Assembly: GCA_002897955.1 (NCBI GenBank)
Contig: BDTY01000022.1
Span: forward strand, 1 to 34,763
Source of the DNA: an archaeon BMS3Bbin15
Lineage (GTDB): Archaea; Hydrothermarchaeota; Hydrothermarchaeia; Hydrothermarchaeales; BMS3B
Length of the DNA stretch: 34,763 nt
Direction: 5' to 3'
Of this stretch, positions 26,350 to 28,060 are shown piece by piece. The position numbers and the translations under genes are program-made. The notes beneath the pieces were generated by a model that worked only from the letters and a program-made list of their open reading frames with translations, had not been told where the DNA came from and searched no databases. The first letter of the stretch is position 1. Each line of letters begins with the position of its first letter.

Positions 26350-27027
26350 ATGACTGAATATACAATAAAGGATATTCCAAAAGGTGAAAGGCCAAGGGAG
26401 AGGCTGATAAAACATGGGTCTTCTTCTTTATCGAATGCTGAGCTCCTTGCCATTATTCTCAGAACCGGGATGAAGGGGGAGAATGTGTTAACTCTTTCAG
26501 GGAATATCCTGAATAAATATGACATTAATAAGCTCTCTAAGTTAGATATCAGCAACCTTAAAAATATTAAAGGTATAAGTGATGCAAAAGCCTGTCAGAT
26601 TGTTGCCTGCTTTGAGCTTGGTAGGAGAGTGTCTGTTTACAGGGGAGAACAAAAACCAATAATTCGTTCTTCAGAGGAGGCATATTCCTTGGTCTCGGAT
26701 ATGAGTTCCGAGCCTCTTGAGGTGTTTGCTGTTCTGCTTCTTAATATCAGAAATAGAGTTATTAAAAGATAGAAACTTTTCAGGGGTGGAATAGCCTCGA
26801 GTATTGTTGAGCCACAGGAGATTTTTAGAAAGGCTATTCTTGAGTCTGCATCAAGGATAATTCTTGTGCATAACCACCCCACAGGGGACCTGGAGCCCAG
26901 CAGTGAAGATATAGCTATAACAAAGAAGGTGAAGGAGGCAGGAGAGCTAATAGGCATTGATGTTCTTGACCACATTATTGTGGGAGACTCGGCTTATGTT
27001 AGTCTGAAGGATAGGGGGATTATATAG
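26350..27027 (+). pseudogene. radC: RadC-like JAB/MPN protein with an in-frame TAG
   Basis: The reading frame is 226 codons long with one internal TAG at 26770-26772 (codon 141). The first part has a UPF0758 N-terminal helix-hairpin-helix region (KHGSSSLSNAELLAIILRTG and LKNIKGISDAKACQIV) and a proper start of the MPN domain (EVFAVLLLNIRNRVIKR). After the TAG the same frame goes on with KLFRGGIASSIVEPQEIF and the metal site ILVHNHPTGDLEPSSEDIAI, ending in DHIIVGDSAYVSLKDRG. Everything except the TAG is intact, at the position where homologues commonly have Glu or Lys (one base away: GAG or AAG). It is therefore a fresh nonsense mutation, a sequence error, or a recoded codon. The functions of RadC proteins are poorly known. 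Confidence 0.85.
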
Positions 27028-27070
27028 CAGTTTATCAAATATATTGTGCAGGGCAGGATTTTTCATTGTA

Positions 27071-27130
27071 ATGTCAATGATGAATGATGGGCGATCTGAT
27101 CAGTGATGAACCCTATGAGCTCTGAGACAT
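27071..27130 (+). ncRNA. C/D box guide sRNA
   Basis: All four boxes are perfect. Box C is ATGATGA (27077-27083), D' is CTGA (27096-27099), C' is GTGATGA (27103-27109) and D is CTGA (27122-27125). Both spacers are exactly 12 nt, ATGATGGGCGAT and ACCCTATGAGCT, and D' to C' is 3 nt, the archaeal ideal. ATGTC (27071-27075) pairs with GACAT (27126-27130) to close the terminal stem beside the kink-turn. Such RNAs bind L7Ae, Nop5 and fibrillarin and guide 2'-O-methylation of rRNA or tRNA at the fifth base before box D or D'. The targets were not searched. It lies free in the gap between radC and thyX. Confidence 0.88.
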
Positions 27131-27172
27131 TTAAATTAAAAATCGATTTTTAAAACCTGTAAAAACTGTAAG

Positions 27173-28060
27173 CTAAATTTCACTCCATTTTTTGAGCAGA
27201 GCTTCTTTAACATTAAAAGATTTATTCCTGTTGAAAGGCTTTAACTTAATTCCTGCTTTGACATGTTTTTTTGTTGGAATAAAAATATCACTCTCAAAAT
27301 TTTTAAATGGACAGTCTTTTCCCTGGGGAGAATCCCTGACATCATTTTCAGGGCACACAGCAAGGTTATAACCTCTGCACCACACATTATCAATTTCAGG
27401 AAAAACCTTTCTAACTGCGAGGTAAATATTTGATGCGAGACATCTCATTTCAGGCGAGGCTCTTACGCACAGTCTTAAACCCAGGAGATTTATAAGGCTT
27501 CTGAGGTTTATTGTGTAGGTATAGGCTGTGTGCACGGAGAAGGGCAGAGCATATCTGGCACTTTCCTTTGGTACTTTCAGCTCAAGGAGAGAGTTATAAA
27601 CAGAACGGCTTGTATGAATAACTTCAGAATATAGATTGAGAATCTTTATGTCCTTTTTCTTTACATTATCTAAATTAACATTTCCTTTCTCTACCATTTT
27701 TTTGTAATCTTGCTGGGATAACCCATACTTATTCAATATCTCAGAAATCGCTGGAGGTAGAGTATAGTCAAAATCTGCTTCATTCTGATATCTTGTGCTC
27801 CTTCCGGTGTGACTTGCAATTCTGTGTTCCAGAAGTTCTGCAGAATTGCCTTTGCTGAGGCCGTGAATTTCAAAGGTAAATATAATGTGTTCAAGAGCTG
27901 AAGAATAGTCATTCTCAAGCACCATGGCAAAAATTTCTTTATCTGTGGGGTCTCTGAATCCCCCTTTACTCTTAATTTTCCCAACACCGCTAACCCTTGC
28001 TGAGTGGGCAACAAAGGCTCTGTCATTGAAGATTTTCACATTCTTAATTTCAATGTCCAT
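27173..28060 (-). CDS. thyX: FAD-dependent thymidylate synthase
   Basis: The 295-aa enzyme makes dTMP from dUMP using a flavin rather than the ThyA chemistry. The ThyX signature R-H-R-x7-S appears as the variant LEHRIASHTGRSTRYQNEAD at about residues 78-97, and the second substrate region is NLRSLINLLGLRLCVRASPEM. The C-terminal part has extra Cys residues (VWCRGYNLAVCPEN and DCPFKNF), a possible metal site also found in some archaeal forms. The C-terminus is Lys-rich (KHVKAGIKLKPFNRNK). No ThyA is present in the window. It stands alone; poly-T runs follow its stop. Confidence 0.93.
   Translation of the reverse strand: MDIEIKNVKIFNDRAFVAHSARVSGVGKIKSKGGFRDPTDKEIFAMVLENDYSSALEHIIFTFEIHGLSKGNSAELLEHRIASHTGRSTRYQNEADFDYTLPPAISEILNKYGLSQQDYKKMVEKGNVNLDNVKKKDIKILNLYSEVIHTSRSVYNSLLELKVPKESARYALPFSVHTAYTYTINLRSLINLLGLRLCVRASPEMRCLASNIYLAVRKVFPEIDNVWCRGYNLAVCPENDVRDSPQGKDCPFKNFESDIFIPTKKHVKAGIKLKPFNRNKSFNVKEALLKKWSEI

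Follow-up and report, generated by a model that had tools for sequence, protein, structure and literature searches.

What does a short RNA do when its name in a family database comes from its boxes and its guides are those of other families? We analyzed a stretch of 34,763 nucleotides from the archaeon BMS3Bbin15 (contig BDTY01000022.1), referred to here as the window, in which an initial annotation made from the letters alone had proposed an archaeal C/D box guide RNA at positions 27071 to 27130. The locus raises the question of whether this is a true guide RNA, which stable RNAs its two guides would address, and whether its best Rfam match tells us either.

A C/D box sRNA between radC and thyX

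The candidate sRNA lies on the plus strand and reads, in order, ATGTC-A-ATGATGA-ATGATGGGCGAT-CTGA-TCA-GTGATGA-ACCCTATGAGCT-CTGA-GACAT. Its parts, together with a possible promoter element, are as follows.

27037 to 27044, plus strand: TATA-like stretch AAATATAT, a possible promoter element, noted by eye about 30 nt upstream of the sRNA
27071 to 27075, plus strand: 5' half of the terminal stem, ATGTC, 5 bp with 27126 to 27130
27077 to 27083, plus strand: C box, ATGATGA (direct reading, spacing pattern, Rfam alignment)
27084 to 27095, plus strand: D' guide, ATGATGGGCGAT, 12 nt; proposed main target 16S C1402 (own position 1360), possible second target 23S C2558 (own position 2647)
27096 to 27099, plus strand: D' box, CTGA (direct reading, spacing pattern)
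27100 to 27102, plus strand: D'-C' spacer, TCA, 3 nt (direct reading, spacing pattern)
27103 to 27109, plus strand: C' box, GTGATGA (direct reading, spacing pattern)
27110 to 27121, plus strand: D guide, ACCCTATGAGCT, 12 nt; predicted target C34 of the elongator pre-tRNA-Met, in a duplex spanning the exon-intron border
27122 to 27125, plus strand: D box, CTGA (direct reading, spacing pattern)
27126 to 27130, plus strand: 3' half of the terminal stem, GACAT, complement of 27071 to 27075

Direct reading bears out the consensus boxes, 12-nt guides, 3-nt D'-C' spacing, and 5-bp stem of the initial annotation: C and C' both match RUGAUGA, D and D' both match CUGA, each guide falls within 10 to 12 nt, a terminal stem is present, and each guide places a base of a stable RNA at the fifth position from box D or D'. 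The claim that such geometry is unlikely to arise by chance also holds, since the box and spacing pattern has a single match when the window is scanned on both strands with two mismatches allowed, and none in 100 dinucleotide-preserving shuffles. BLAST searches of related genomes recovered homologues in which both guide cores are unaltered (8/8, including the copy in the window; L044 to L051) and other positions are changed. The organism's own genome (G000; 1.74 Mb, 123 contigs) encodes fibrillarin (284 bits), and ARAGORN called no tRNA anywhere in the window. Geometry, Rfam, BLAST homologues, the covariation of the D guide with a tRNA described below, and the fibrillarin gene all support the proposal, and from its sequence we predict 27071 to 27130 to be a canonical archaeal C/D box sRNA.

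The intergenic gap that holds the sRNA, given as 145 bp in the initial annotation, measures ∼144 bp and is flanked by a radC frame (ending at about 27028) and thyX (27173 to 28060, minus strand). The closest named thyX relatives are in MAG SZUA-158 (91% identity), Candidatus Pyrohabitans jungbluthii (61%), and a Candidatus Hydrothermarchaeota MAG (60%), and by this one protein the genome looks Hydrothermarchaeota-like. Among nine loci inspected, this gene order is retained in the same-genus genome only. By eye, AAATATAT stands at the same distance from the sRNA in that genome (L045), and no TATA-like stretch was seen as such at the remaining homologues. The radC frame (26350 to 27028, plus strand) looks decayed, because an in-frame TAG at about 26770 interrupts an otherwise conserved RadC and the copy beside the sRNA in the same-genus genome is reduced to a C-terminal remnant (26 aa at 96%); its terminal stop is also TAG. 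Directly 3' of the sRNA, a self match revealed an AT-rich palindrome, AAAATCGATTTT (27139 to 27153), possibly part of a terminator. Elsewhere in the window, a minus-strand frame at positions 1 to 597 carries tandem VGEKVDAVGAKVDV-like repeats and continues past the window's low end.

The D guide and elongator pre-tRNA-Met

We scanned both guides by the fifth-base rule against the organism's own 16S, 23S, and 41 tRNA genes; the initial annotation had expected complements of at least 9 bp. The D guide exceeds this length at its best site, GCTCATAGGG in L039 (G000:C40:17040-17149), where ten Watson-Crick pairs put C34 of the CAU anticodon at the target place, seven of them with the anticodon arm and three with the first intron bases. 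This duplex ranks first of 441 candidates at -19.5 kcal/mol (runner-up, -15.3). L039 has a 36-nt intron after A37, scores 50.8 bits with the Rfam tRNA covariance model, and is, by our own assignment, the elongator tRNA-Met. ARAGORN, run with the bacterial code, does not call this gene, which was found by the Rfam tRNA model; L040 and L041 are likewise uncalled.

Because permuted guides reach ten pairs too (13/2000 in tRNAs and 7/300 in tRNAs plus rRNAs of the same genome), the own-genome match is by itself suggestive only, and the assignment rests instead on covariation. We searched 394 archaeal genomes for the pattern TGATGA-NNNNTATGAGCN-CTGA and found it in 64 (reversed control, 0), a lower bound, as is the D' count below, because these patterns demand consensus boxes and 12-nt guides. 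The three letters that precede TATGAGC in the guide are CCC, CCG, GCT, ACT, CCT, or CGT, depending on the family, and they follow the tRNA. Guides with CCC face introns that start with GGG; GCT faces AGC (G033, G369), ACT faces AGT (G151), and CCT faces AGG (G321), while CGT occurs with an intronless tRNA that reads ACG (G022). The guide ACT of G237 meets the intron letters AGC, leaving one mismatch of three in the intron part.

Among the matches listed, all 27 elongator genes pair with the guide of their own genome over at least 10 contiguous positions including C34, G-U counted. For genomes with CCG guides, a matching tRNA (GCTCATACGG plus a T-arm motif) was present in 16/16 (reversed control, 0); since the pattern held the expected complement GCTCATACGG, this search could only confirm or miss. 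The predicted complementarity over C34, intron bases included, thus covaries with the tRNA in 27/27 genomes (among the matches listed) and in 16/16 more. The 27 genes, one per genome, come from 41 tRNA rows, namely L039 and 40 stretches fetched among the matches listed. Fourteen rows (L188, L189, L191, L195, L204, L205, L218 to L225) were set aside as non-elongator CAU tRNAs; their acceptor ends are of the GGGCCCA/GGTCCCA kind, which we judged by eye and take to be tRNA-Ile2-like. The 64 D-guide genomes therefore divide into 27 in which the elongator gene was read, 16 in which it was found by pattern, four (G055, G220, G185, G010) in which none was found among the matches listed, and 17 outside the sample.

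The form of the substrate is also indicated. When the intron is removed in silico from the 26 intron-containing genes among the matches listed, the pairing run shrinks to 7 to 9, which disfavors the mature elongator tRNA. The initiator tRNA-Met was rejected as a D target with a run of 8 and a terminal G-U. Folding of this organism's pre-tRNA is predicted to pair intron GGGAG with CUCCU, so that guide pairing and this helix are mutually exclusive. Most likely, then, the D guide directs methylation of C34 in the intron-containing elongator pre-tRNA-Met, and we infer that this would precede intron removal or compete with it. The suggested timing agrees with the outline in PMC2584109, where a separate sRNA directs Cm34 of pre-tRNA-Met through a duplex that takes in part of the intron, hence before splicing. 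At one locus (G288:C63:3505 and 3613), two tRNA-Met guides with identical letters follow each other on the same strand at a distance of 108 nt, which may reflect a tandem duplication of the sRNA.

The D' guide and its rRNA sites

The pattern TGATGA-NNRRYGGGCGRN-CTGA, with GGGCG fixed and two letters allowed at each of positions 3, 4, 5, and 11, occurs in 112 of the 394 archaeal genomes (reversed control, 0), and the exact core TGATGGGCGA, which leaves positions 1 and 12 variable, in 80/394 from 22 families. The two best of 495 own-genome duplexes are with 16S position 1360 (-17.4 kcal/mol) and 23S position 2647 (-16.8 kcal/mol), corresponding by alignment to C1402 and C2558 of E. coli. Contiguous pairing extends over nine positions in 16S and ten in 23S, the longest run, with one G-U in each, and thus reaches the expected 9 bp at both sites. 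Since 22/400 permuted guides score equally well against 16S plus 23S of this genome, conservation has to carry the case for a target.

We sought rRNA in 30 genomes, all selected for having the D' guide, and obtained 16S in 23 and 23S in 22, with readable sites in 22 and 21, respectively. The rRNA of G346, G297, G023, and G195, which represent the families with swapped guide order (see below), was not obtained, and these genomes fall outside the site counts. The guide pairs with 16S over 8 to 11 contiguous positions in 22/22 genomes; with 23S, the run is at least 10 in 8/21 and 8 or less in 13/21. Ten of these 21 genomes have an A-loop that reads UUCACC, UUCAUC, or UUAACC instead of UUCGCC, which puts a mismatch beside the 23S site. 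C1402 of 16S is thus the common denominator and is preferred over the 23S site, although the near-invariance of the 16S site leaves the 22/22 count with little power. The 23S site had been our initial choice of main target for its longest own-genome run and was given up in that role because many guide-bearing genomes have lost it.

We regard 16S C1402 as the likely main target of the D' guide; in this organism, whose A-loop also fits, the guide may act on 23S C2558 as well. Against 16S, guide position 11 forms an A-C mismatch and position 5 a G-U pair, both retained in most genomes; a guide for 16S alone would have no need of them, and they count against such a reading. A table of PMC11542601, whose archaeal cell is blank, lists Cm at the C1402 equivalent for E. 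coli, yeast, human, and Arabidopsis. Because archaeal sR12 is predicted for the C1402-equivalent 16S site, according to the portion of PMC3511168 on that position, our D' guide may be superfluous there or have another target. Three loci (L285, L286, and L283, in G122, G168, and G277) have a 16S decoding region that reads CGCCCAUC (or UGCCCAUC) in place of the usual CGCCCGUC, altered at the G1405 equivalent; the altered site is paired by the D' guides of these genomes, which carry T5 and G11.

Could the D' letters be a compromise between two targets? Guide positions 3, 5, and 11 (and 12) are those at which 16S and 23S call for different letters. Among the 112 genomes, G3 is found in 109, T5 in 97, and A11 in 97; G3 fits 16S, and T5 and A11 fit 23S. 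A guide that serves both 16S C1402 and 23S C2558 wherever the A-loop is UUCGCC would account for this division as well as for the near-equal energies of the two duplexes. Position 11 also tracks the A-loop: it is A in nine and G in one of the genomes with UUCGCC, and A in three and G in eight of those with other loops (Fisher p 0.0075, each genome counted as independent). In a tree built from the 16S of 21 genomes, the combination of G11 and a changed loop appears in f80 and f58 and also within a weakly supported seven-member clade that mixes A and G; the independent events are few. Furthermore, A11 is kept despite a changed A-loop in G335, G040, and G048, G11 stands with UUCGCC in G176, and Cm at C2558 was not found in the archaeal literature surveyed. 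The association is suggestive, no more, and we hold dual use to be possible, with the odds against it.

It is improbable that C2558 in the A-loop stem is the real D' target and the 16S match a by-product. The longest own-genome run (ten positions, one G-U), the better fit of T5 and A11, and runs of at least 10 in 8/21 genomes would all suit such a guide. Set against these are the 13 of 21 guide-keeping genomes in which the 23S run falls to 8 or less, ten of them with a changed A-loop, while 16S is still paired, and the near-universal G3, where A would serve 23S better.

The Rfam label and shared guides

In a cmscan search against Rfam, the sole match in the window above its gathering score is RF01133, "sR3" (27073 to 27127; 45.2 bits; cut-off, 41). 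The family model has no base pairs, and the score is carried by the boxes. In the Rfam alignment, the sR3 consensus has different guide letters at both guide positions, and for this reason the label does not give the function. Loci with homologues or shared guides behave variously: seven of the 15 exceed the sR3 cut-off, two of these matching snoPyro_CD and one sR41 as well, and the other eight match no C/D family above cut-off; five loci from swapped-order families score best with sR2 or sR1, below the cut-offs.

The guides themselves recur under other names. G048 (f14) carries them on separate RNAs, with TGATGGGCGA as the D' guide of an sR1 match (64 bits) and CCCTATGAGC as the D guide of an sR41 match (63 bits). 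Two further f14 loci are alike in kind: G381 has an sR1 match with the rRNA guide, and G349 has an sR41 match with the tRNA guide. Our RNA thus shares with Rfam sR41 (RF01126) an identical D guide core, CCCUAUGAGC, and the sR41 matches of G048 and G349 carry its D guide; its D' half is unlike that of sR41, and it scores 38.4 bits, below the cut-off of 54. For sR41, PMC2584109 suggests another target, G1950, in its treatment of that RNA. With sR1 (RF01152), it shares the D' guide TGATGGGCGA, present in the sR1 matches of G048 and G381 (64 bits), and differs in the D half (34.5 bits; cut-off, 45).

That the RNA is an orthologue of sR3 with sR3 function is accordingly very improbable. The score above threshold and the seven loci that share it speak for such descent; the guide letters that differ in both places, the box-driven model, and the sharing of the D guide with sR41 and of the D' guide with sR1 speak against it. 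We also consider a functionless chance or decayed sequence, for which the broken frame of the adjoining radC might argue, very improbable, given the geometry found in 0/100 shuffles, the cores held constant in 8/8 homologues while other positions changed, and the covariation of the D guide with tRNA-Met.

Two guides in one RNA

Both half-patterns occur in 57 genomes, on the same sRNA in 33 and on separate ones in 24. The rRNA guide comes first in 13 genomes (f1, f2, f4, f6, f8), all from the phylum of the window, and the tRNA guide comes first in 20 genomes from four other families (f11, f43, f84, f92). The window's phylum is represented by 23 genomes, and by pattern the other ten lack a joint sRNA: both guides are apart in G021, the rRNA guide is alone in G020, the tRNA guide is alone in G011, G017, and G022, and neither exact pattern was found in G007, G013, G015, G018, and G019. 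Re-pairing of guides and circular rearrangement have been described for Methanopyrus, as outlined in PMC4644070, and guide swapping as such is therefore already known.

The RNA is probably a double-guide C/D sRNA for Cm at C34 of pre-tRNA-Met, placed before or in competition with splicing, and at 16S C1402, with 23S C2558 a possible addition. Geometry, complementarity, conservation, and D-guide covariation are read from the sequence, and on these we build the remaining steps. Once transcribed, the sRNA would assemble with L7Ae, Nop5, and fibrillarin into an RNP that carries out 2'-O-methylation. Its D guide would bind the unspliced elongator pre-tRNA-Met so that C34 faces the fifth base counted from box D, and the resulting Cm34 would be made ahead of, or competing with, excision of the intron. 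The D' guide would bind the 16S decoding region and position C1402 (own 1360); because the own A-loop fits this guide too, 23S C2558 may receive a mark as well.

We offer a wider account more tentatively. One sRNA would mark both the wobble base of tRNA-Met and C1402 at the P site of 16S, as well as 23S C2558 where the A-loop allows, through a compromise guide, and the two guides would have been joined repeatedly, or early with a later swap of their order; we think this somewhat doubtful as a whole. Both jobs are known separately, and the interesting part is their union in one RNA, for which we make no claim as to publication status. No report of a C34/C1402 guide pair in one RNA was found among the open-licence papers listed.

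These readings give a testable function to an RNA that Rfam names by its boxes. The D' core, letter-identical in 80/394 genomes, has as its best-read target a base that is methylated by a protein in bacteria and with a snoRNA in eukaryotes. A tRNA guide that tracks intron letters points to selection on methylation before splicing, and the two guide orders make this RNA a usable case for how guides pair and reshuffle. If the assignments are true, a single sRNA would act on both sides of AUG decoding.

Comparison with known systems

Guides for Cm34 of intron-containing elongator pre-tRNA-Met include Pyrococcus sR49 and 18 candidate archaeal sRNAs, as summarized in PMC2584109, and a Haloferax RNA (Joardar 2011, as cited in PMC6601510). 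Our RNA resembles the former, as they are outlined there, in being a separate C/D sRNA with the same target base and part of the intron in the duplex; it differs in that its partner guide has a conserved rRNA target, a comparison made at the level of letters through Rfam sR41 and sR-tMet only. At the other site, archaeal sR12, yeast snR70, and SNORD43 are proposed for the same 16S position, the C1402 equivalent, in the corresponding portion of PMC3511168. Our RNA is unlike sR12 (RF01147) by Rfam model, scoring just 15.9 bits against a cut-off of 38; the two were compared by model and reported target rather than by guide letters. Bacterial RsmI methylates the same base, according to the passages on it in PMC5053481 and PMC11542601, and differs in being a stand-alone protein that uses no guide RNA. 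Finally, in a Pyrobaculum case sketched in PMC7994747, the second guide that accompanies a tRNA guide has no target, whereas the partner guide in our RNA is conserved and has a candidate target.
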